Positions 12,834-23,631 of a stretch of 64,000 nucleotides of DNA are shown here, piece after piece. Source of the DNA: Verrucomicrobiales bacterium (lineage in GTDB: Bacteria > Verrucomicrobiota > Verrucomicrobiia > Verrucomicrobiales > DEV007); assembly GCA_029213065.1 (NCBI GenBank), contig JARGPH010000016.1, positions 51,203 to 115,202 on the forward strand, read 5' to 3'. The notes under the pieces are model-generated. The model had not been told where the DNA came from. It made no database searches and was given only the letters and a program-made list of their open reading frames with translations. Numbering within the stretch: position 1 is the first letter of the stretch; every line of letters starts with the position of its first letter. The position numbers and the translations under genes are program-made.

Positions 12834-14414
12834 GTGAATCAGCTGAGTTTACATTCCATTTTCGGGCTCGATCTCGACCGGCATCGAATCGGTCGCTCCC
12901 TCATGATACGCGGGATGGGGATGATTTATTTCATCGCTTTCGCCTCATGGTGGTCTCAGGTCTCACTCCTCATCGGGGAAAATGGTCTCATTCCCGCCAA
13001 CGACCTTCTCCTTTTCCTCGAAGGGAAACTCGATGAGCCGGGAATTTCGCGTTTTGGAACGCTTCCCTCCCTCTTCTGGATCTTCGGCACCTCAGACTTT
13101 GCCTTCCATGTCACCTGCATGATCGGCTGCCTCCTTTCCATCCTCGTTATCGCGGGAAGGTTTTCCGGTCCCGCGCTCATCGGGCTTTGGGCTCTCTATC
13201 TGTCTTTCGTCAACGTCGGCGGGGTTTTCATGAGCTTTCAATGGGACATTCTGCTGCTCGAATCCGGTTTTATCGCCATTTTCCTCTCTGACTGGAAACG
13301 GAGAACCTCCTGGAGTGATCCGCCGCCTCTCAGCGTCGTCAATCGCATCGCACTGGTATTCGCGTGGCTTCTCATCGCCAAGCTGATGTTCTTTTCCGGC
13401 TGGGTGAAACTGGCCTGGGCGAGCGAGAGCAATCCGGAGTGGTGGGGTGAAGGCACCGCGCTCGCCTATCATTTCATGACTCAACCGATTCCTTCGTGGA
13501 CCGCCTGGTATGCCCACCAGACGCCGACGTGGCTGCTTCAGCTCTCACTGTTCCCGATGTATCTCATCGAGATTTTGTTTCCTTTTGCGATTCTCTTTGG
13601 CCGCTTCGGTCGTCTCGTAGCCGCCTGTGGATTTGTCTTCCTCATGATTCTGATCATGCTGACGGGAAACTTTACCTACTTCAACTGGCTCACGATTGTG
13701 CTCTCACTTCCGCTCGTTACCGACAGGCTCTGGCCCGTTTTCTTCCGCAACTGGCTCAAATTCGAACCTCTCGGCCTCACCGAACCGGAGGAAAGGAAAC
13801 CTCTCATGATTCGGCTGGGACTTGTTACTCCCGTTTTTCTACTCCTCGCCCTTCTCAATCTCAACACGGTCCTGCGCGATCTCCACACTGCGCCGAATCC
13901 GTTCTTCAAAACGGAGAAGACTCCGGAGTGGCTCTCCTCACTTGCGGGATCCGTGAGGTCCTGTCACCTCGTTTCCGGCTATGGCCTCTTCCGCACAATG
14001 ACGACGGAACGCCCCGAGATCATCCTCGAAGGAAGTCGTGACGGACTGAGCTGGTTCGAATATGACTTCAAATGGAAAGCCGATGACCTCTCGGACCGGC
14101 CGAAGTTTGTCGCTCCCCACCAACCGCGCGTCGCCTGGCAATTCTGGTTTGCGGCACTGGAGGGGGAATTTTCCTATCGGAGTTCCAACGCCAGATGGCT
14201 CGAGTCGCTTGTCCTCAAGTTACTCACCGGTGATCGGGACGTCGAAAAATTATTGAAGAGCAATCCTTTTCCTAACGAACCTCCCAGCTATATTAGAGGA
14301 AGGCTTTTCCGGTATGAGTTCACGACTCCAGAGGAGAAAGCTCGCACCGGCGACTGGTGGAAGCGGGTCATCATTCGCGAATTCCTGCCACAAGTGAGCC
14401 GCCCCGATTCCTAA
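12834..14414 (+). CDS. Lipase maturation factor (LMF1-like) multi-pass membrane protein
   Basis: A 526-residue protein of the lipase maturation factor family. In animals LMF1 acts in the ER to fold lipases; the bacterial role is not established. The N-terminal two thirds hold many hydrophobic helices, with family-like stretches SWWSQVSLLIGENGLIPA, SFQWDILLLESGFIAIF and SGWVKLAWASESNPEWW. The C-terminal portion is soluble, with RPKFVAPHQPRVAWQFWFAA (a well-conserved block). Start is GTG at 12834. A small HELTH-motif protein gene follows after about 50 bases on the same strand. Confidence 0.88.
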   Translation: MNQLSLHSIFGLDLDRHRIGRSLMIRGMGMIYFIAFASWWSQVSLLIGENGLIPANDLLLFLEGKLDEPGISRFGTLPSLFWIFGTSDFAFHVTCMIGCLLSILVIAGRFSGPALIGLWALYLSFVNVGGVFMSFQWDILLLESGFIAIFLSDWKRRTSWSDPPPLSVVNRIALVFAWLLIAKLMFFSGWVKLAWASESNPEWWGEGTALAYHFMTQPIPSWTAWYAHQTPTWLLQLSLFPMYLIEILFPFAILFGRFGRLVAACGFVFLMILIMLTGNFTYFNWLTIVLSLPLVTDRLWPVFFRNWLKFEPLGLTEPEERKPLMIRLGLVTPVFLLLALLNLNTVLRDLHTAPNPFFKTEKTPEWLSSLAGSVRSCHLVSGYGLFRTMTTERPEIILEGSRDGLSWFEYDFKWKADDLSDRPKFVAPHQPRVAWQFWFAALEGEFSYRSSNARWLESLVLKLLTGDRDVEKLLKSNPFPNEPPSYIRGRLFRYEFTTPEEKARTGDWWKRVIIREFLPQVSRPDS

Positions 14415-14465: not shown

Positions 14466-14936
14466 ATGAACTCTTTCTGGGCAGACATGATCGTCAAAAT
14501 GTCCCTCCCGCTCGCGACCCGATGGGTTGAAAAGCAGGAGTCGGTCATTATGCGCGAAGGCCGCCCTCTCAGTGAATGGGAAACGATGTGGGCGCAGGAT
14601 GTCGGTGTCAGCAAACCCGAGGAAGTTCGCATTCTCCCCGTCCCGAGAATTCCGACGCCGGGGTCCTGGATCACGCGGATCTTCGGCGTCTTCGGAGAGG
14701 GCCCCACCGGCATGGCGGTTAATTACGGAATCTACCTCGAGGCATCCAACGCGACCAATCCATCTTTGCTCGTCCATGAGTTAACCCACGTCGCCCAGTT
14801 CGAGCGCATGGGCGGAATCGGTGCCTTTCTCGAAGAATACATCTACCAGTGCGTCAGCGACGGCTACTGGGACTGCGCCATGGAACAGGAAGCCCGCGAC
14901 GCCGCCGCGCCGTTCTCACGACCTCCGGGCGGCTGA
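14466..14936 (+). CDS. Small putative zinc-metalloprotein with HELTH motif
   Basis: A 156-residue protein without a clear signal peptide. It carries H104-E-L-T-H108 in LLVHELTHVAQFERMGG and downstream acidic residues (E140, E142 in AMEQEARDAA) that could supply the third zinc ligand, as in small gluzincin-like domains often annotated as DUF4157-like. Residues 60-95 (PRIPTPGSWITRIFG and GMAVNYGIYLE) look like the strand-edge region before the helix. Peptidase activity is an inference from the motif. It follows the lipase maturation factor gene and is followed by a terminator-like hairpin. Confidence 0.6.
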   Translation: MNSFWADMIVKMSLPLATRWVEKQESVIMREGRPLSEWETMWAQDVGVSKPEEVRILPVPRIPTPGSWITRIFGVFGEGPTGMAVNYGIYLEASNATNPSLLVHELTHVAQFERMGGIGAFLEEYIYQCVSDGYWDCAMEQEARDAAAPFSRPPGG

Positions 14937-15030: not shown

Positions 15031-18000
15031 CTACTTCTCCTCAGCCTCCACATCGGGCTGCTCGACCTTGCTCTCCACCTCAACGGGCAGAGATTCCACG
15101 GGGACATCGACGGGATCGCCGTTCTCCTGAACCGGAACCACTTTGATCTCCACATTCACGGGCACGGCCCGCAGGTCATTGATGATTTTAGCCAGCTTTC
15201 CGATCGCATCGTCAGCCAGTGTCGCCGGCTGAGCATTTCGCTCGCTGGCCGATTCAATGACCGTCTCAATGCGATGGAGGCCATCCGAAAATCCCGCGAG
15301 GGTTCCGACAACCCGACTTACGGGATCATTTTCTCCCGCACCGCCCATGAGCAGATTCCGCCCGAAGCGTCGTTTGATCTCGTCCCAGCGACTCAAATCC
15401 TCTTCGGACTGAGTCCCTTCCATCTCACGGAACTTGAGCAAATTCGATTCCGCGCCGGTCGTCAATGTCTGGGACTCGTTCTCGTAGTGATCGACAATAA
15501 TTCCCTCAACCTCTTCATCGGTCATCACCGGGAGAACCTTCTCGGTCATACGATTCATGTTCCGGTAGGACCCCTGTAGTCGGAACGGAGGCTCCGTGCG
15601 ATAGGCATCCTCCATCGCCGCGGAGCGAATGTATTCAAGATTCACCCGGAGAACGCTGTCGCGGACCCGCATGAGTTTCTTCATCACGCCGACCATCTCA
15701 TCGATTTCCTGAACCGTATAATTCCCGTCGAAATCAACGCCCTCTCTGGACCCGTTCTCCGCGATTTGCATCACCGCATAAACATCCTTTTGGCTGCGGC
15801 TCGCAAGACGGCTCAGAACCGGATTCGAAGTCATCGCATTCTCGATGTAACTCGCCTCGAAGTCCGCAGAGTGCTCCCCAATGATATCTCCCAAATTGTA
15901 GGTATCGGCCCGGTTCGCCAACATGTCAGGAATCTGAAATTTACCGCCGCTCTCAGTGTAGGGGTTTCCTGCCATTACCACACAAACCTTCTTCCCGCGA
16001 AGATCATAAGTTCGCGGCTTGCCATTCCAGACGCCCTCGATCTTCCGCTGTGCATCACACAGCGAAATAAACTTCTGCAAAAACTCAGGATGAGTGTGTT
16101 GAATGTCATCAACGTAAATCATGACATTGTCCCCCATCTCGAAAGCGAGGTTCAGCTTCTGAATTTCCTCCCGTGCACTCGCATTCGGAGCCTCTTCGGG
16201 ATCGAGTGAAGTCACGTCGTGCCCGAGCGCAGGACCATTGATCTTCATGAAAGTAATCCCGAGACGATTCGCGATATACTCCATCAAAGTCGTCTTGCCG
16301 TAACCGGGAGGAGAGATCAGCAAAAGCATTCCCATGCGATCTGTCCGCGTATCTTCACCCGCGGTGCCCATCTGTTTGGCAAGATTGTCGCCGATGAGCG
16401 GCAGATAGACACGATCGAGAAGGCGGTTCCTGACAAAGGCAGACATTACCTTCGGTCTGAATTCATCGAGTCGCATCTCCTCACGGCGGGTCTCGATCAG
16501 ACGCACTTTCGTTTGTTGGTATTCGACAAAGGCCGGCACCACCTCGGACTCAAAATGGCTGAGCCGCTCCACAAACTCCACATAGTCGAGGGCCAGAGAT
16601 CCGCTTTCGATATTCCGGTGCTGGCCCGTAAGCCCCGCCACCTCCTGCGCGCTGGCGACCTGACGAACGGCACGCTTTTCGAAAGAATCGGTCACTGAAA
16701 TCCAGGCAGCTTCGAGAACAGGCCCGTCGACATCAGCGACACCGACAATGGTTTGAATCCAATCCTGTGCCATCTCCAATGCGACGCCCGAATCGGCGCT
16801 CAGGCCGCTGATCGCCGCGCGGAACTCCGTGGAAAGCCGCTTCGCGGTGAGGGACTGTGAAAATTCCTGATACACTGTCGCCGCCGCCGGTGAAATCACG
16901 ACCGGCTCCCCCGCGATGAGCTGGGCAAACCAATATCTGGCAGCCCGCGCTGCATTCGCAGAGCGGAGCAAAGCGAGCCCGTCTGACAAAGAGGCCCGGC
17001 ATATTTCGAATTCCTCAGCCAACTCACGGCAGTAGGAATCAGTGCGTTTTGAGATATCAAATTTCCCCGCAAGTATGCCCATCGAGGCGACGCGTTTTTC
17101 AATCCCCTCGCGCCATTCCGCCCCCGCCCTGTTCCACGCAAATTGTGCCAGAATGCGGTCACGACTTGAATACTCGAGCAATCCGACGTCGCCCTCGATG
17201 GCGACGAGGACATCAATAATCCGAAGCGCATCGGCATCGTGAACACCCTTGGTGTAAGCCTCGTCATAGCGGTTTGACATGAAAACCTGAAGCGCTTCCA
17301 ACTTCGCCACCTCGTCCATTTCGCTCCACGGCGAATCCAACCCGGCACTGGCCTCGGAACGAAAGTAGCGCCATGCCAGATACTCCGCGCGATAAACCTC
17401 ATCATTCTCCGAGACAACGCTCATTTTCCCGATCGCTCCTGCTTCGAGAACGACCGGATCCGTGACCGGCTCGAAAAATTCTGTCCCCGCGAGGTGAAAG
17501 GCCGGGCCCTTGTCGTGAGGCACTATCGAAAGCTCCAAGTCCTGGCGGTTCACCGTGAAACGATGCTCACCGAATTTGATGACATCTTTGCCATCGACGA
17601 AAAGCTCTTTCCTGTCCTTAAGCTGACGCACCGCATCGTCGCGGACCGTTTTCAAACGCGTGCGAACGTCGTCGGACTTCACCGTATCGCCGAGCTCGGC
17701 CAACTCCTCGATGATGTCCCGGACCTTCTCGACCATGAGATCGCCGGCGAGGTAGCCGTTGATTTCAGAAATCCCTTCGAGCTGTCCAACGCGATGCTGG
17801 ATCGTCGTTAGAATCCGCTCAGCGGAACGGTGCAAGGTCGACGAGCGCCGGTTCTGAGTCTCGAGCAACTGAACTTTTCGCGACTCAAAGGCGTTGTAAA
17901 TTTCATCCCGCTTCTCAACGATCTGCGTTACGTAATCATCGAATTCAGCGAACTTCCCTTCGAGCTCTTCGAGCTGAATCATCGTCCGCGAGAGGTAGTC

Positions 18001-20163
18001 GTCACATTTCTCAGGCGTATTGCAGAGATCGAGAAAGTTGATCACCGACTGGCTCAGCAATTGCATCTGAGCGCCGAACTGCGCCTCGCCTTCCTGCTTT
18101 GCGAGTTCGAGACGGCGATTCTTCAGCACCGACCTGACACTGTTCAACTTCGAATAAATCGCCGAGATATCGTCAATGATTTTCGTCGTCTCGGTGGCGT
18201 CCTCGATACGGAGATTCCCCACGATATCGATGAGCATTTCGAGTTCGCTCCCCGCCTTATCAAGTTCTTTGCGAACCTCTTCGGCCCGGGCAACTTTTTT
18301 AACCTTCCCCACTTCACCTTCCTGATCGGCAATGCGTTTCCGATAGGGATCGAGCGCCTCCTTTTTAAGAAGAAATTCCACGCAATCATTTGAGACCCGC
18401 TCGGTAGCGTCAACCACCTCGGCTTCGGCAGCCTCGATCAAGTCTGCATCGTGATAACGCAGATCACGAAGGGCAATAACCTCACCCCGGATTGTCCGGA
18501 GCTCGGACAGGTTTTCGACAAACCCGAGAATGTCATCCGGTCGCAGGCTTCGCGCCCGGCGCGTAATGTCTTTGGAGCGACCGACGACCTCGTTCGATTT
18601 TTCGGCGGTGGAACGACGCAGACTCGACACCTTCTCGAACTCCGCAATTGCTGAATCCGCGGCCCCTTTCAACTGGAGGAGAACCGCGCGAAGATCGTGG
18701 GCATTTTCATCACCACACCAGAAATAGGTATCGATGATGTCGCCGCTCTTTTTCGTGAGGTCGAGGTAGAGCCCCTCGTAGCTGTCTTCTTTCTGGAGCA
18801 GGTTCAGCACTTCATGACACTCGGCCATGCACTTCACGATGTCCGCATTACCGACCTTGTAGAGAAAGCTGTTCTCTTTGTCGGCGATGGACTTTTGCTC
18901 GGCAGTGAACGGCGTCTGCCAAACCTGAAGAACGTGATGTTTCTGAGCCTCCTCGCCATCGCGAAAATAGACCATCTCGCCATCATCAAAAATCGTGTAG
19001 CCGTTACAAACAATCGGATTCTCGACCGACTGGTTGATGAGATTGTAGGGCATCAAAATGTAGTGCCCCGAAGTCCGGTTATAGAAAAGATAAAGGTAGT
19101 CCTCGCCGTTGGGTGAGGCGATGCGGCGTTCGAAAAGCATCTCCCGCAGCTCATTGTCGAAGCGCTTCGTCTCACCGGTTTGGAGATAGTATCCGTCCGA
19201 GAAAATGATACCGTGATCTTCGGGAAGGAGGACGCAGGCGTCGTTAATCGAATCGATCCGCGTGACCGTCTTGGTCTTTTCGTTGTAGACGAGATGACGA
19301 TAATCTTTCTCCTGATAGGGAAGGATTCGGAGGAGGATGAGGCTCCCTACAATCGCATAAAGAATCTCCGCATCGTCGAGAGTCTGGTCATCGTTCGCAA
19401 CAACCTCCTCGTAAATCCCCTCACCGGATTCGGTGTTATCCTCGATCTTGATCGTAAGATCGCCGCCAACGGTTTCGACGAATACGCGGTCCTCAATCGA
19501 GACGTGGGGATGAAGCCCCTCACGGAACATGCCGCGATGAGCGCGCTTCCATTCGAAGTCCTGCTGAGGAGGAAAACGATACTCGTGATCAAAGCGGTTC
19601 CCGATGTAGCGAAGCTCGCCGTGCCCCTTGATAAGGAACTTGAAACACTTCACATCCTCGACTGACTTCCCGACCCGGAACGCCATGTAGAGGTGCGCCC
19701 CGATCACCATGAACTTTACGAAAATGGTCTCGCGGTAGTATTTGTAGAGATAGGAAAAATCCTCACGGAACTCAGGATCATCGAGCGGGCCGCCTTCGAG
19801 TGCCCCGAAGTGATGCCCCCCGGCGTCGTATTGATAAAAGCCGAAAACATCCTCCACCTCGGTGACGGATTTCAGCCCCATCTGAACGTTGTAACCGAAG
19901 AGCAGTTTCCCGCCGCCGATCGCCACGATGTCACGGGCAACGCAATTGTATTCCGTCGAGATTCGCTCCGTCGCAACGAGGCTGGGCTCCACCGAACCGA
20001 AGACCTCCTGCCGCGAATGGTTCAGCGAATCGAGCCGGGTCCGCAGCTCGCCCCCATGGGCAAGGAGACGTCTCCGGAGCACTTCATAAGTGCCGCCCTC
20101 GAGCTGCTCGGCGGGGGCCGGCGTTCCCGCCACCGCTTCCGTATTGTCGGTTACTTCAGACAT
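15031..20163 (-). CDS. Giant coiled-coil AAA ATPase with DUF3686 ('DNA repair ATPase')
   Basis: A 1710-residue protein. Residues about 20-470 fit DUF3686 (conserved blocks FGYNVQMGLKSVTEVEDVF, FVKFMVIGAHLYMAFRV, YEEVVANDDQTLDDAEILYA). Long coiled-coil stretches span about 500-860, then a mixed region. An AAA domain at about 1240-1450 has Walker A SPPGYGKTT (near residue 1285), Walker B MIYVDDIQH (near 1346) and a sensor-like VVMAGNPYTES. The acidic C-terminus is low complexity. The family name says DNA repair, but that function is not demonstrated by sequence. It is the third gene of a unit with a flotillin and a YqiJ/NfeD-like protein (36-base and 29-base gaps), suggesting that it works at a membrane microdomain. 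Confidence 0.85.
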   Translation of the reverse strand: MSEVTDNTEAVAGTPAPAEQLEGGTYEVLRRRLLAHGGELRTRLDSLNHSRQEVFGSVEPSLVATERISTEYNCVARDIVAIGGGKLLFGYNVQMGLKSVTEVEDVFGFYQYDAGGHHFGALEGGPLDDPEFREDFSYLYKYYRETIFVKFMVIGAHLYMAFRVGKSVEDVKCFKFLIKGHGELRYIGNRFDHEYRFPPQQDFEWKRAHRGMFREGLHPHVSIEDRVFVETVGGDLTIKIEDNTESGEGIYEEVVANDDQTLDDAEILYAIVGSLILLRILPYQEKDYRHLVYNEKTKTVTRIDSINDACVLLPEDHGIIFSDGYYLQTGETKRFDNELREMLFERRIASPNGEDYLYLFYNRTSGHYILMPYNLINQSVENPIVCNGYTIFDDGEMVYFRDGEEAQKHHVLQVWQTPFTAEQKSIADKENSFLYKVGNADIVKCMAECHEVLNLLQKEDSYEGLYLDLTKKSGDIIDTYFWCGDENAHDLRAVLLQLKGAADSAIAEFEKVSSLRRSTAEKSNEVVGRSKDITRRARSLRPDDILGFVENLSELRTIRGEVIALRDLRYHDADLIEAAEAEVVDATERVSNDCVEFLLKKEALDPYRKRIADQEGEVGKVKKVARAEEVRKELDKAGSELEMLIDIVGNLRIEDATETTKIIDDISAIYSKLNSVRSVLKNRRLELAKQEGEAQFGAQMQLLSQSVINFLDLCNTPEKCDDYLSRTMIQLEELEGKFAEFDDYVTQIVEKRDEIYNAFESRKVQLLETQNRRSSTLHRSAERILTTIQHRVGQLEGISEINGYLAGDLMVEKVRDIIEELAELGDTVKSDDVRTRLKTVRDDAVRQLKDRKELFVDGKDVIKFGEHRFTVNRQDLELSIVPHDKGPAFHLAGTEFFEPVTDPVVLEAGAIGKMSVVSENDEVYRAEYLAWRYFRSEASAGLDSPWSEMDEVAKLEALQVFMSNRYDEAYTKGVHDADALRIIDVLVAIEGDVGLLEYSSRDRILAQFAWNRAGAEWREGIEKRVASMGILAGKFDISKRTDSYCRELAEEFEICRASLSDGLALLRSANAARAARYWFAQLIAGEPVVISPAAATVYQEFSQSLTAKRLSTEFRAAISGLSADSGVALEMAQDWIQTIVGVADVDGPVLEAAWISVTDSFEKRAVRQVASAQEVAGLTGQHRNIESGSLALDYVEFVERLSHFESEVVPAFVEYQQTKVRLIETRREEMRLDEFRPKVMSAFVRNRLLDRVYLPLIGDNLAKQMGTAGEDTRTDRMGMLLLISPPGYGKTTLMEYIANRLGITFMKINGPALGHDVTSLDPEEAPNASAREEIQKLNLAFEMGDNVMIYVDDIQHTHPEFLQKFISLCDAQRKIEGVWNGKPRTYDLRGKKVCVVMAGNPYTESGGKFQIPDMLANRADTYNLGDIIGEHSADFEASYIENAMTSNPVLSRLASRSQKDVYAVMQIAENGSREGVDFDGNYTVQEIDEMVGVMKKLMRVRDSVLRVNLEYIRSAAMEDAYRTEPPFRLQGSYRNMNRMTEKVLPVMTDEEVEGIIVDHYENESQTLTTGAESNLLKFREMEGTQSEEDLSRWDEIKRRFGRNLLMGGAGENDPVSRVVGTLAGFSDGLHRIETVIESASERNAQPATLADDAIGKLAKIINDLRAVPVNVEIKVVPVQENGDPVDVPVESLPVEVESKVEQPDVEAEEK

Positions 20164-20199
20164 TCTTCAGTGGATTGAGCTCCACCAATGGATTGAGTG

Positions 20200-22230
20200 T
20201 TAAGACATCTGCTTCAGCACTGTAGCGGCATTCTCATCGGCAATGCCGAATCGCTTCGCAGCACCTAACAAACCGGCAATCTTCGTCTGCACCGCATTGT
20301 CTCCGGATTCCGAGGCCATCCGTGAAAGAAGTGCCGAGACCGAGAGATTCTTCAGATCCTCGGAAGTGATTCCGAAGTCATCAATCCAGCTTCCGAGCTG
20401 AGATTTGAAGTATTCCGGATCGCCATTGAAGAAGGTTTCTTTGATATCCGTCAGGGTCTCACTGTTGGCGACAAGGCGATCAACTGATTTGCCCTGAGTG
20501 ATCGCACCGGTAATCCGATCAAAGAACTCTGTTTCACCACCGACAATGTCGATTTTCGCGGTCTTGAGCGCCTGAGCAAGAATCTCAGAATGCCTTGCCG
20601 CAATGGCTTCACGCACATCGATCTCCGCAAGCTCGACGATCTTCTCTTTCTCAAGCTCAAGTTTGAACTCTTCGTGCTCTTTACCGGCCTCGTTGAATTT
20701 CTTCATCGCATCAGCCTTGGCTGTAATGCCTTTCGCTTCTGCATCCGCAGTTGCCTCGACAACACGGGCTTCACCCATTCCGGGAGCCGCTATTTCAGCG
20801 GAAACCCCTTCAGCAAGAGTCTTCTTCGCAATCGAAAGTTTCTCGGACGCTGCCTGTTCAGCCTCAGCCGAAATGACAACCTCTTCAGCTCGCAGCTCAG
20901 CCGCCTGCTTCTCAGCCTCGGCCATTTTGACAACCTCGTAGAGATCCTGGTCCGCTCTCATTTGAGCCGCCTCTTTCGCTGCCTCAGCCTCCTTGATTTG
21001 CCTGATCAGAGCCTCTTCCGCCGCCTTCTCAGCGAGCGTCACCGCGACCTGTTTCTCACGATCCGCTCCGGCAAAGGCTTCGGTATCGAGGATCTTTTGC
21101 TGCTCTTCGACCACGCTCTTCTCAACCGTAACCCGCTCACGAATCACGTCCTGGATCTCCTTCTTCTCAACCTCAACGCTCTTCTCCTTCTCAATTTCTT
21201 TCAGTGTCGTGACGCGCTCACGCTCGATCGACTCGAGCTCCTGATCGCGTTTAACGCGCTCCTGCTCGACCACGTCGGTGCGCTCCTTGTTGCGCATCGC
21301 AACGATGACCTCGCGCTCCTTGTTCTGAGTCGCAATTTCAATCTCCTCCTCCGTCGTGATGCGGGCCCGCTCCGACTTCAGTTTTTCCTCCTCAGCCACC
21401 TTGTTCGCTTCCGCCTCCTCGCGGGAACGAACCGACATAACCTCGCGCAGCTGCTTCGCCTCAGCCTCTTCCTGCTGGCGCTCAAGCTCAAGAATTGCTT
21501 CACGCGCTTCGACGTCCTGCTTCTTGATGACACGCTCTTTCTCCCGCTGAATCGAGTTGGAAAGCTTCGCCTGATCCGCTGTCAGCTCAGTGATCTTCTT
21601 AATACCTTCCGCATCGAGAATATTATTCGGATCGAGGCTGGACATAGGAGTCTGCTCCAAAAAGTCAATCGCGCAGTCATCGAGGACAAAGCCGTTCAAA
21701 TCAGTGCCGATCACCTTGATGATCTCATCCCGGAAGGTGTCACGCTCCTGATAAAGCTCGATAAAGTCGAATCGTTTACCAACCGTCTTAAGCGCCTCGG
21801 AAAACTTCGCATCAAAGAGCGTTCGAATCTCCGCCTCGCTCGAGGCACGCTCACAACCAATCGATTGCGCCACTTTGAGAACATCTTTATTTTCGTTGTT
21901 CACGCGTACGAAAAACGCGACCTCAATATCGGCACGAATATTATCCTTACAAATCAACCCGTTCTCGGCGGTTCGCTTGATCTCAATACGCTTGATCGAG
22001 ATGTCCATCTCTTCCATGCGATGGAGGATCGGATAAACCATGACCCCATCGAATGCGACGCGTGTTCCACCGACGCCGGTGACAACAACCGCGGTTCCTT
22101 TTTTAACTTTACGAAAGAAACTCGCGTAAAATATCCCGACTGCGAAAAGCAGTGCGACGATCGCCACAACGACGACCAAAACGACTGAGCCACCGAAATT
22201 CATGGCTAGTATTGGTAGGTCTGTATTCAT
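20200..22230 (-). CDS. Flotillin-like SPFH-domain protein
   Basis: A 676-residue membrane-anchored SPFH protein, YqiK/FloT-like. One transmembrane segment spans residues 14-36 (GGSVVLVVVVAIVALLFAVG), the SPFH/band-7 domain lies at about 40-210 (VVTGVGGTRVAFDGVMVYPI, RADIEVAFFVRVNN), and a very long Glu/Ala/Lys-rich coiled coil spans about 215-560. It includes a flotillin-type EA-rich repeat zone around residues 470-510. About 110 residues of non-coiled C-terminus follow (IDIVGGETEFFDRITGAI). Flotillins oligomerise into membrane microdomains. It sits between an NfeD-like gene and the giant ATPase gene on one strand. An internal ATG at 22203 is an alternative start. Confidence 0.9.
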   Translation of the reverse strand: MNTDLPILAMNFGGSVVLVVVVAIVALLFAVGIFYASFFRKVKKGTAVVVTGVGGTRVAFDGVMVYPILHRMEEMDISIKRIEIKRTAENGLICKDNIRADIEVAFFVRVNNENKDVLKVAQSIGCERASSEAEIRTLFDAKFSEALKTVGKRFDFIELYQERDTFRDEIIKVIGTDLNGFVLDDCAIDFLEQTPMSSLDPNNILDAEGIKKITELTADQAKLSNSIQREKERVIKKQDVEAREAILELERQQEEAEAKQLREVMSVRSREEAEANKVAEEEKLKSERARITTEEEIEIATQNKEREVIVAMRNKERTDVVEQERVKRDQELESIERERVTTLKEIEKEKSVEVEKKEIQDVIRERVTVEKSVVEEQQKILDTEAFAGADREKQVAVTLAEKAAEEALIRQIKEAEAAKEAAQMRADQDLYEVVKMAEAEKQAAELRAEEVVISAEAEQAASEKLSIAKKTLAEGVSAEIAAPGMGEARVVEATADAEAKGITAKADAMKKFNEAGKEHEEFKLELEKEKIVELAEIDVREAIAARHSEILAQALKTAKIDIVGGETEFFDRITGAITQGKSVDRLVANSETLTDIKETFFNGDPEYFKSQLGSWIDDFGITSEDLKNLSVSALLSRMASESGDNAVQTKIAGLLGAAKRFGIADENAATVLKQMS

Positions 22231-22259
22231 AGATTTTTCCTGGTTGGTAGATACAAAAG

Positions 22260-22961
22260 TCAGTTAAGAGGTCGAACCGTATAGGTCTCTGTTTCGGGCG
22301 TATAGGAAACCACGAGCACTTCCGTCCCTTTGGGTATCGAATCGTCTGACGAAAGAACCGCCTTCAAAATGAGCGATTTTTCGTCGGTCTCGACTTCAAT
22401 CTGGCCGAACTCACGGTCCAGAGTCGTGGAGCGAACCCGCCCGCTCGACCCAATGATCTGCGCCGGCTTCTCAGAGGTGCGCAGCATGTCCATGAGCGGT
22501 CTCAGTGGCCGGATCAATAGCCGGGTGATGACAAAGGCGAGGATCACCACGGGAATCACCATGATAGTGGCAAAGGAAGAAGACTGAGCCGGATTGAAAT
22601 AGTGGTTCCCCGCAATGTTCAGGGCCCAGAGGAAGACCGAAAATACGGAGATCACAAAAATCAAAGGGGCATCAGAAGCACCCACCAACCGGAGAATCCC
22701 GTGAAAAAAGGTCGCGCCGACTGAGGAATGATCGCCATTTCCGGTGAGGTTGTGATTGTCACTGCCCTCAGCTCCATCAATGCCGTCAGGATCGACTCCA
22801 TCGACACCGTCCACGCCATCGACCCCGTCAATCCCATCAATGCCTCCTTCCAAATCGACCAAACCGAACAAGCCGATAACCCAGTAAAGAGCCACCGCAC
22901 CTAACAGTATCGTGAAAGGCAAATTCAATGGCGATATAGATTCTTGTAGCAGTTCAAGCAT
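22260..22961 (-). CDS. YqiJ/NfeD-like membrane protein with OB-fold and Gly-x-Asp repeat
   Basis: A 233-residue partner of the flotillin. The start is placed at the ATG at 22961; the frame is open to 23018. The first membrane segment is residues 14-34, followed by a G-[IV]-D tripeptide repeat (residues 39-62), then two more hydrophobic segments (about 98-118 and 131-150) and an OB-fold-like C-terminal domain with IIGSSGRVRSTTLD and GTEVLVVSYTPETETYTVR. NfeD/YqiJ proteins typically pair with SPFH proteins, and this one does. It is probably first in the three-gene unit. The repeat loop is unusual and acidic. Confidence 0.82.
   Translation of the reverse strand: MLELLQESISPLNLPFTILLGAVALYWVIGLFGLVDLEGGIDGIDGVDGVDGVDGVDPDGIDGAEGSDNHNLTGNGDHSSVGATFFHGILRLVGASDAPLIFVISVFSVFLWALNIAGNHYFNPAQSSSFATIMVIPVVILAFVITRLLIRPLRPLMDMLRTSEKPAQIIGSSGRVRSTTLDREFGQIEVETDEKSLILKAVLSSDDSIPKGTEVLVVSYTPETETYTVRPLN
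22776..22847 (-). repeat. In-frame 9-bp repeat encoding (Gly-Ile/Val-Asp)n
   Basis: Roughly eight tandem 9-base units within the YqiJ-like gene encode GID/GVD tripeptides, with one PDG interruption, between the first and second membrane segments. The DNA units are similar but not identical (GTC/ATC alternates), so copy-number slippage would change loop length without a frameshift. Confidence 0.8.
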
Positions 22962-23151
22962 TGTCCTTACAGTTCCCGAGCAAGCTTGCTCCGGGTTGTG
23001 ACTTACATTCAAGCCCAAAATCGATTACCTAATCTTTTCCGGACGCTCGAAGATTAGAGGTAGTTTCTCAATCACTCGACTACAAAGCGGGAGCATGATT
23101 GTAACGCCAATCCGCTTGTCAATGAGGTGCCTTTCGGGCACACTCCACCCC

Positions 23152-23631
23152 ATGGAGTCGCATGAAGTATTAAAGGAGGCATTCGAAAGCCCTAACACCA
23201 GCCCAAAGGAAATCGCATCGGACCTCGGGGTCTCCCTCTCACTCGTCTACAAGTGGGCACAGCCGAACTCTGAAACCGGCTCAGGGAGCCGGAATCCGCT
23301 CGACAGGATTGATACCCTCATGAGGCTGACCGGCCACACCGGGATTGCTGAATGGATGTGCCGTCGCGCAGGGGGTTACTTTGTGAGGAACCCGAAAAGC
23401 ACCTGTGAGCAGGGCTATCAGGTCGTCCCCGCGACCCACACCATCGTCCAGCAGTTTGCAGGGCTTCTCGACGTCGTCTCCCGTGCCGCGGAGGACAATA
23501 CGATCACGCCTGACGAGTCCGCCGACATTCGTGTCGTCTGGGACACCTTAAAATCTTACTGTGAAGGATTTGTCCGCTGTTGCGAAGAAGGCGATTTTGA
23601 GCAAATTCAGAAAGATCTCGATATTTCCTGA
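23152..23631 (+). CDS. Small HTH regulator resembling phage CII-type proteins
   Basis: A 159-residue protein from the ATG at 23152 (frame open to 23095). The N-terminal third is a helix-turn-helix: EVLKEAFESP, then SPKEIASDLGVSLSLVYKWA, where the recognition helix is visible. The rest is mostly helical (CRRAGGYFVRNP, then a long helical region), as in phage regulatory CII-type family proteins. It diverges from the flotillin unit across about 190 bases and is co-directional with alanine racemase, with a gap of only 28 bases. It could regulate either; sequence alone does not decide. No phage genes are nearby. Confidence 0.6.
   Translation: MESHEVLKEAFESPNTSPKEIASDLGVSLSLVYKWAQPNSETGSGSRNPLDRIDTLMRLTGHTGIAEWMCRRAGGYFVRNPKSTCEQGYQVVPATHTIVQQFAGLLDVVSRAAEDNTITPDESADIRVVWDTLKSYCEGFVRCCEEGDFEQIQKDLDIS

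Follow-up and report, generated by a model that had tools for sequence, protein, structure and literature searches.

The closest described relatives of the locus reported here are the band-7/flotillin-YqiJ-AAA+ operons, which feature in an mSystems paper from 2024 (Ravi et al.). In its section on these operons, that paper (PMC11237479) describes forms with or without CesT-PspA, names the short form that lacks PspA, calls the short form widespread in bacteria and archaea and gives the AAA+ ATPase a coiled coil and a β-propeller. An SPFH2 gene paired with an NfeD2-like gene also occurs as YqiJ-YqiK in Escherichia coli and YuaF-YuaG (FloT) in Bacillus subtilis; the passages that treat these pairs mention no linked giant ATPase (PMC2636767). 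At the inner membrane, an SPFH protein is likewise paired with an AAA+ protein in HflK/HflC-FtsH.

The window (the whole stretch of 64,000 nucleotides that was analysed) carries the three protein types named in the operon section of PMC11237479. They are encoded by three minus-strand genes at 15031-22961, with the gaps of 36 and 29 bases that the earlier note had stated, and its identification of a flotillin, a YqiJ-like protein and a DUF3686 ATPase was confirmed (Table 1). The 676-residue protein gave no Pfam match when scanned whole; its first 230 residues matched Band_7 above the cut-off, in agreement with the genome search. A single N-terminal hydrophobic segment (aa 3 to 42) and a long middle region with many E, K and A residues, which has the appearance of a coiled coil in the alignment, complete the features that PMC11237479 gives for the SPFH protein of these operons. 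The SPFH profile found no match among PDB sequences at an E value of 0.01, so the cage analogy used below rests on family knowledge. The 233-residue protein, whose length is counted from an internal ATG (the mechanical open reading frame starts at TTG 23018), shows three hydrophobic segments by hydropathy, in line with the three transmembrane segments given in PMC11237479. On its own it had no convincing Pfam match. Among 25 members of its family, 10 matched YqiJ_N (best E value, 1.8e-9) and 4 matched NfeD (best, 0.0019) at E ≤0.1, and the sole PDB sequence match at E ≤1 was a weak one to YuaF (2k14; E value, 0.023). These family-level matches lend modest support to its being YqiJ-like.

Table 1. 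Features of the operon and its upstream flank (positions in the window)
Feature	Position	Strand	Basis or remarks
DUF3686 AAA+ ATPase, 1710 aa	15031..20163	-	Propeller, helical/coiled-coil arms, AAA+ module (predicted)
AAA+ core, aa 1238-1584	15412..16452	-	Predicted model, fold match; Walker A GYGKTT, Walker B DD
DUF7902 inside helical region, aa 602-684	18112..18360	-	PF25472, E 3.2e-27
DUF3686 β-propeller (predicted), aa 59-418	18910..19989	-	AlphaFold2 model and fold match
SPFH (band-7, flotillin-type) protein, 676 aa	20200..22230	-	Band_7 E 3.3e-11, hydropathy, alignment
SPFH/Band_7 domain, aa 41-181	21688..22110	-	Band_7 matches
YqiJ/YuaF (NfeD2)-like protein, 233 aa	22260..22961	-	Family-level matches, three hydrophobic segments
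Candidate operator, dyad TTACAA-N13-TTGTAG (minus strand)	23080..23104		Overlaps promoter match
CP76/CII-like HTH regulator, divergent, 159 aa	23152..23631	+	PF06892, E 9.9e-7

The ATPase matched PF12458 (DUF3686; E value, 1.5e-186), PF25472 and PF00004 (AAA), while no Pfam family was matched by residues 860 to 1240. AlphaFold2 models of residues 1 to 870 and 850 to 1700 (mean pLDDT, 86.3 and 85.4) predict that a β-propeller leads into coiled coils and then into an AAA+ core, the architecture given for the ATPase in PMC11237479. The predicted propeller aligned with the WD40 domain of DCAF1 (VIA-align Z, 10.0; rmsd, 4.6; 203 residues), and the modeled core aligned with CbbQ over 250 residues (Z, 16.9; rmsd, 3.7). 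Among the matches listed, CbbQ and NorQ reached Z values of 14.7 to 16.9, compared with at most 14.2 for other AAA+ chains, and the core is therefore predicted to be closest to these MoxR-type proteins. A stretch past sensor 1 (NP...P..L..R) presumably also resembles MoxR proteins. In contrast to them, the DUF3686 ATPase has a giant propeller/helical N terminus, and its linked partner is SPFH where MoxR proteins have a VWA one. The second acidic residue of a typical MoxR Walker B motif is Glu, whereas DUF3686 proteins carry Asp-Asp in all 112 sequences that have a residue at this site (113 aligned). This invariant change could be a sign of weak hydrolysis, which would count against a strong motor. 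The 3292-residue ATPase of locus L085 was set aside as evidence of a fusion because its sequence includes a run of N.

From the architecture and the gene order, we infer that the ATPase of PMC11237479 belongs to the DUF3686 family. That name is not used in the text of the paper, and a literature search for it returned no match; a search for "DNA repair ATPase" found no link with flotillin, and what it returned with PspA was unrelated by title. The idea that the system had gone unnoticed does not hold, since the operon, including its short form, is described in PMC11237479.

Linkage of the three genes was established among the best 80 named relatives, 64 of which had at least 2.6 kb of upstream sequence. 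An SPFH gene lay upstream of the ATPase in 62 of these 64 loci, and the triad was complete in 58, an arrangement that spans seven assigned phyla and is far beyond chance. In the window's phylum, 27 of the 31 loci with this much upstream sequence had the SPFH gene linked; for 5 of the 6 SPFH-less loci of the two sets, the genome carries an SPFH gene elsewhere. DUF3686 was present in 34 of 387 genomes of the phylum versus 0 of 14 control genomes, the latter presumably including E. coli and B. subtilis. The SPFH subfamily, delimited at a score gap (at least 483 bits, the next match scoring 201.5; 65 of the 387 genomes match at E ≤0.001), was found in 33 genomes, all of them among the 34 with the ATPase and none without it. 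The single genome with the ATPase alone (G191) is 91% complete. For 83 complete triads, tree distances correlated between AAA and SPFH (r, 0.82), AAA and YqiJ (0.78) and SPFH and YqiJ (0.73), and none of 999 permutations reached such values; like the co-occurrence counts, these statistics ignore shared ancestry. Of 65 strong AAA splits, 11 conflicted with a strong SPFH split. Two outcomes had been named beforehand as speaking against the unit, namely, that DUF3686 genes elsewhere never accompany flotillin/YqiJ or that the phylogenies are incongruent. Both were checked and, given a link conserved across phyla, coupled presence and broadly agreeing trees, neither was observed.

PspA was less constant. 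It was detected (E ≤0.001) in 24 of the 34 ATPase genomes versus 27 of the 353 others (20 and 19, respectively, above the Pfam cut-off), leaving 10 ATPase genomes in which it was not found. A same-strand PspA gene lay upstream in 18 of 32 Bacteroidota loci, in the one Kiritimatiellota locus and in 8 of 33 loci of the window's phylum. Two Planctomycetota loci, L082 and L117, have PspA immediately after the ATPase gene. Up to three copies occurred in a row. The order at a Dokdonia locus (L115) is CesT, PspA, YqiJ, SPFH, ATPase. Among the named loci, PspA went unseen at all 20 from Verrucomicrobiota, at all 4 from Bacillota and at 15 of the 17 from Planctomycetota; contig ends truncate several of these. 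No CesT-PspA was present in the 36 kb around the window locus, as fits the short form; the genome's only PspA match was weak (49 bits) and lay on a different contig, where the 14 kb covered contained no match to CesT. On these counts, PspA was rejected as an obligate partner. Judged by gene content, SPFH is the near-obligate partner of the DUF3686 ATPase and PspA an optional one, whereas PMC11237479 centers on PspA.

Next to the operon, some relatives carry the gene of a CII-like regulator together with a candidate operator; this regulator does not appear in the section of PMC11237479 on these operons. Relatives of the regulator adjoin the triad in 11 of the 113 other loci, one genome being counted twice, and its open reading frame in the window extends upstream to 23095. 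The candidate operator overlaps a minus-strand match to a sigma-70-like promoter at 23095-23122, from a scan that did not exceed shuffled sequence in its number of sites (4 against a mean of 4.0); the terminator scan gave 12 against 8.6 (standard deviation, 3.8). The dyad was absent from 12 stretches around remote CP76 genes, in only 6 of which the gene caller recovered the gene. A second match to the dyad pattern lies in L064, distant from the operon. Schlafen/AlbA-like and AbiEii-like genes sit between the SPFH and ATPase genes in single relatives (L032 and L078).

The triad very probably forms one functional unit. As for its action, we favor with moderate confidence an SPFH-anchored, non-proteolytic AAA+ machine that carries out remodeling at the membrane. 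The three products would form one physical complex at the membrane. On the model of HflKC and flotillin, the SPFH protein, inserted through its N-terminal helix, would build a ring-shaped cage at the cytoplasmic side of the inner membrane; its integral-membrane partner would be the YqiJ-like protein. The ATPase would be soluble: its propeller would serve as a head for docking, long arms would be helical, and the C-terminal part would form a MoxR-type AAA+ ring. On the SPFH platform, it may serve as a non-proteolytic remodeler or assembly chaperone of membrane proteins or membrane-bound polymers, possibly under stress, with PspA/ESCRT-III filaments as one client in genomes that carry them. A more specific version is offered tentatively: the SPFH protein and the ATPase may make up a membrane machine in its own right, separate from HflKC-FtsH as well as from the Psp response. 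Its cage would have a MoxR-type motor of its own that, given the altered Walker B, would probably be a slow switch and not a processive unfoldase; PspA/CesT would have joined in some lineages, and in some Verrucomicrobiota and relatives a phage-CII-type regulator would control the machine.

Two alternatives are narrower forms of the SPFH-anchored remodeling mechanism and overlap it. Vps4 disassembles ESCRT-III, and the ATPase could in the same manner disassemble PspA polymers at SPFH-marked damaged membrane. The adjacency and enrichment of PspA described above speak for such a recycler, as do, in the parts of the sources considered, the need for the SPFH protein YdjI in PspA localization in B. 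subtilis (PMC8581546), the SPFH genes of some archaeal ESCRT loci (PMC10936438) and the ESCRT-like role suggested in PMC11237479. However, at the named loci PspA is coupled far more loosely than SPFH, the window's own genome offers only its weak match, and a Vps4 chain is absent among the 50 fold matches listed; we regard this version as rather doubtful. It is somewhat less likely again that the ATPase is a maturation chaperone which, like NorQ/CbbQ, has a single particular enzyme or membrane complex to remodel at the SPFH platform: these two are the nearest solved folds to the predicted core among the matches listed, but no VWA domain was found in the 20 neighboring proteins of relatives that were scanned, nor was a recurring enzyme gene noticed.

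Regulated proteolysis inside an SPFH cage is very unlikely. The pairing of SPFH with AAA+ recalls HflKC cages, which enclose FtsH-type AAA+ proteases in the part of PMC11260169 that treats them. FtsH is a membrane-anchored zinc protease, and the DUF3686 ATPase shows neither feature. HExxH is missing from the window protein, which contradicts a built-in protease though not a separate protease partner, and occurs in 4 of 105 family sequences; no protease domain was matched in Pfam at E ≤0.1. Hydropathy reached 1.6 in 5 of the 105. The window protein, one of these, showed only a borderline peak (1.65 at aa 265 to 283), which falls within the predicted propeller, and no N-terminal membrane helices of the FtsH kind. 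The independent SPFH-linked AAA system proposed in the earlier note stands as to its conserved link, while its comparison with HflKC-FtsH holds only loosely, as the ATPase is not an FtsH. An anti-phage defense role is highly improbable: the two genes inserted at L032 and L078 would fit it, but the PADLOC matches were short, confined to P-loop or HTH (best E value, 9.3e-4), and 0 of 18 pattern matches on viral contigs were confirmed. The least credible reading is DNA repair, taken from the Pfam description, a weak RuvB similarity around the P-loop and a nearby recF; it was rejected, and the earlier doubt about the label borne out, because the constant partners belong to the membrane (many relatives also have PspA and CesT), the RuvB similarity is restricted to the Walker A side, and recF occurs near the operon in only 1 of the 113 other loci (L064, the window's nearest relative).

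The locus is a well-supported new example, predicted from genes, of a membrane machine already in print. What is added here is the probable identity of DUF3686 as the AAA+ ATPase of band-7/flotillin-YqiJ operons, its near-obligate SPFH and optional PspA, the invariant Walker B Asp-Asp and the CII-like regulator with its candidate operator. In view of these results, it seems best to remove the "DNA repair" label from DUF3686. Among bacterial flotillin-type proteins, many still have no clear function. With HflKC-FtsH as the first, the system provides a second case in which an SPFH protein and an AAA+ machine go together, and an SPFH subfamily that was not seen without this ATPase in any of 387 genomes offers a clean, testable handle on cage and motor as a pair.

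The YqiJ-like, SPFH and DUF3686 AAA+ ATPase genes (the triad) lie in the window as the earlier note had described them, all on the minus strand and separated by gaps of 29 and 36 bases. The Band_7 domain of the 676-residue protein was missed by a whole-protein scan and was found (3.3e-11) by scanning the N-terminal 230 residues. The 233-residue protein is probably of the YqiJ/YuaF type, an assignment that rests on its relatives and operon position: YqiJ_N was matched in 10 of 25 relatives and NfeD in 4 of 25 (E up to 0.1), and the PDB match for the family was YuaF (E 0.023). The window's genome holds one DUF3686 gene and six Band_7 matches, including the triad SPFH. A homologue of the eukaryotic lipase maturation factor is encoded nearby, as is a small protein whose HELTH sequence resembles a zinc-peptidase motif.

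Features of the triad region in the window and in relatives' ATPase loci (L handles)
Feature	Position	Strand or placement	Characteristics
Lipase maturation factor homologue	12834-14414		LMF1 and LMF1_C domains
Small protein	14466-14936		weak eCIS_core match (E 0.012)
ATPase, 1710 aa	15031-20163	minus	DUF3686, DUF7902 and AAA domains
SPFH protein, 676 aa	20200-22230	minus	Band_7 domain; single N-terminal hydrophobic segment
YqiJ/YuaF-like protein, 233 aa	22260-22961	minus	three hydrophobic segments; identity from relatives and operon place
Candidate operator	23080-23104	between regulator and YqiJ gene	dyad TTACAA-N13-TTGTA(A/G)
CP76/CII-like HTH protein gene	23152-23631	divergent from operon	PF06892 (9.9e-7)
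Short SPFH gene	L040:6137-6709	between YqiJ and full SPFH genes	
Short SPFH gene	L084:6978-7529	between YqiJ and full SPFH genes	
Short SPFH gene	L097:6910-7365	between YqiJ and full SPFH genes	
Short SPFH gene	L131:8263-8814	between YqiJ and full SPFH genes	
Downstream PspA gene, Planctomycetota	L082:6790-7479	directly 3' of ATPase gene	
Downstream PspA gene, Planctomycetota	L117:4766-5449	directly 3' of ATPase gene	
Schlafen/AlbA and HATPase_c_4 gene	L032:8464-9972	between SPFH and ATPase genes	

Searching named genomes with a profile of the ATPase gave at least 536 confirmed stretches, the best 80 of which were kept as loci; 64 of these 80 have at least 2.6 kb of upstream sequence. Among these 64 loci, drawn from the best 80, an SPFH gene of the triad family lies no more than 1.9 kb upstream of the ATPase gene in 62, and a YqiJ-like gene is present as well in 58. 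The partnership proposed in the earlier note was thus found elsewhere, in Verrucomicrobiota, Kiritimatiellota, Planctomycetota, Bacteroidota, Bacillota, Thermodesulfobacteriota, one Pseudomonadota MAG and one unassigned MAG. No recognised YqiJ gene was found in four of the 62 SPFH-linked loci (L078, L096, L121 and L122); the contig of L096 stops just short of where the gene could start. In L131, one of the 58 full triads, the pair is on the opposite strand. All three genes were present in 27 of the 31 loci of the window's phylum with enough upstream sequence, and a few loci of this phylum have inserted genes and gaps of up to 3.6 kb. Across 94 SPFH-bearing loci, including the window and some short loci, the median gap was 131 bases, and 68 gaps were 300 bases or less. 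Six loci lack a linked SPFH gene (L076, L086, L059, L060, L062 and L063). For five of them, SPFH is encoded elsewhere in the genome (G387, G388, G129, G086 and G284; the ATPase contig of G129 is short), adjoining a YqiJ-like gene in all of these genomes except G086. For the sixth, a search of the genome (G191) found no SPFH of the triad family. Four loci encode a second, short SPFH protein (151 to 190 residues, without a long coiled coil), possibly a second cage subunit.

Presence of the genes was coupled as well. DUF3686 was found in 34 of 387 genomes of the window's phylum and in none of 14 control genomes. In 33 of the 387, every one an ATPase genome, the SPFH profile reached 483 bits or more; the next five genomes scored 188 to 202 bits and the rest of the 65 matching genomes at most 31 bits, and the presence line was set inside the gap below 483 bits. 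Both genes were present in 33 genomes, the ATPase only in 1, SPFH only in 0 and neither in 353 (Fisher p 5e-47, without correction for ancestry). Among genomes with a genus shown, the pairing holds within genera though presence varies (both genes against neither: 1 and 2 in g6, 5 and 1 in g4, 1 and 7 in g77). In five genomes without the DUF3686 ATPase (G119, G128, G131, G163 and G228), a PspA match lies some 3 kb or less from the gene for a different SPFH (188 to 202 bits).

Incongruent phylogenies, which the earlier note had envisaged as an objection, were not the general picture in FastTree trees of 83 complete triads. Tree distances correlated at 0.82 (ATPase-SPFH), 0.78 (ATPase-YqiJ) and 0.73 (SPFH-YqiJ), values reached by none of 999 label permutations. 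Of 65 strong ATPase splits, 48 were recovered in the SPFH tree and 11 contradict a strong SPFH split; the two proteins share the same nearest neighbour in 58 of 83 triads. This broad agreement is what common inheritance would give and is by itself no proof of contact.

In Bacteroidota, 18 of 32 loci have PspA upstream and in the same orientation, and 17 of 32 have CesT (both among the best 80 of at least 536 named loci). PspA is placed likewise in the single Kiritimatiellota locus and in 8 of the 33 loci of the window's phylum, where some relatives have two or three consecutive PspA genes ahead of the triad. The order in Dokdonia (L115) is CesT_Tir (6.3e-57), PspA (3.8e-45), YqiJ, SPFH and ATPase. 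In 2 of 17 Planctomycetota loci, PspA instead comes straight after the ATPase gene. The 20 Verrucomicrobiota, 4 Bacillota and 3 Thermodesulfobacteriota named loci, some of which are short, showed no PspA. In the window's genome, PspA was matched once (49 bits), on a different contig, with no CesT match found near it. At E up to 0.001, PspA occurred in 24 of 34 ATPase genomes versus 27 of 353 others, and over Pfam's cut-off in 20 of 34 versus 19 of 353. Given this patchy distribution, the ATPase is tied far more tightly to SPFH than to PspA.

The ATPase was modeled with AlphaFold2 from 60-sequence alignments (residues 1-870, mean pLDDT 86.3, pTM 0.63; residues 850-1700, 85.4 and 0.75). Residues 59-418 form a predicted beta-propeller (DCAF1 WD40, Z 10.0, rmsd 4.6, 203 residues), and residues 433-854 are predicted to be chiefly long helices. 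Among 50 matches listed, the modeled AAA+ core was nearest CbbQ (Z 16.9, rmsd 3.7, 250 residues), followed by NorQ (Z 14.7-16.1), while dynein, Clp and Cdc48 chains scored 14.2 or less. No variation was seen in Walker A, the sensor-1 Asn (1400) or Arg1418 among the 112 sequences with a residue there (113 aligned). MoxR and other AAA+ proteins typically have Glu as the second Walker B residue; here, Walker B is Asp-Asp (window residues 1352-1353) in 112 of 112 sequences with residues there. No HExxH motif was found in the window ATPase; 4 of 105 family sequences have one. Hydropathy reaches 1.6 in 5 of the 105, including the window's, whose peak (1.65) falls inside the predicted propeller.

The HTH regulator also matched NCBIfam YmfL (4.9e-7, under the family cut-off). 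Its relatives adjoin the triad at 11 of the 113 other loci (one genome counted twice), either divergently or first in line where PspA precedes the triad. In eight phylum genomes, it adjoins the triad, or the SPFH gene when the ATPase is on another contig. Of the 387 phylum genomes, 88 encode a member of the family (26 of the 34 that have the ATPase and 62 of the 353 that lack it), so the family is not exclusive to the triad. The dyad, a candidate operator judged from sequence, is exact in the window, L064, L067 and L069 and has one mismatch in L066; the pattern was derived from the same sequences in which it was counted. Elsewhere in the whole genome it occurred at three places, and a backwards control at one. 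It overlaps a sigma-70-like match, such matches being no commoner here than in shuffles.

Published accounts describe SPFH2-NfeD2 gene pairs (PMC2636767, 2009), cages formed by flotillin and HflKC (PMC11260169) and a requirement for YdjI in bringing PspA to the membrane in B. subtilis (PMC8581546). An operon with the make-up of the triad, and its short form, are described in PMC11237479 (2024), where an assembly role with PspA is suggested; the triad is a further case of this kind of operon. No mention of the name DUF3686 was found in the literature searched. The triad is a real, conserved three-gene unit, to which we add the DUF3686 identification, counts that make SPFH, not PspA, the near-obligate partner, a predicted MoxR-like core with an altered Walker B, and a CII-like regulator.
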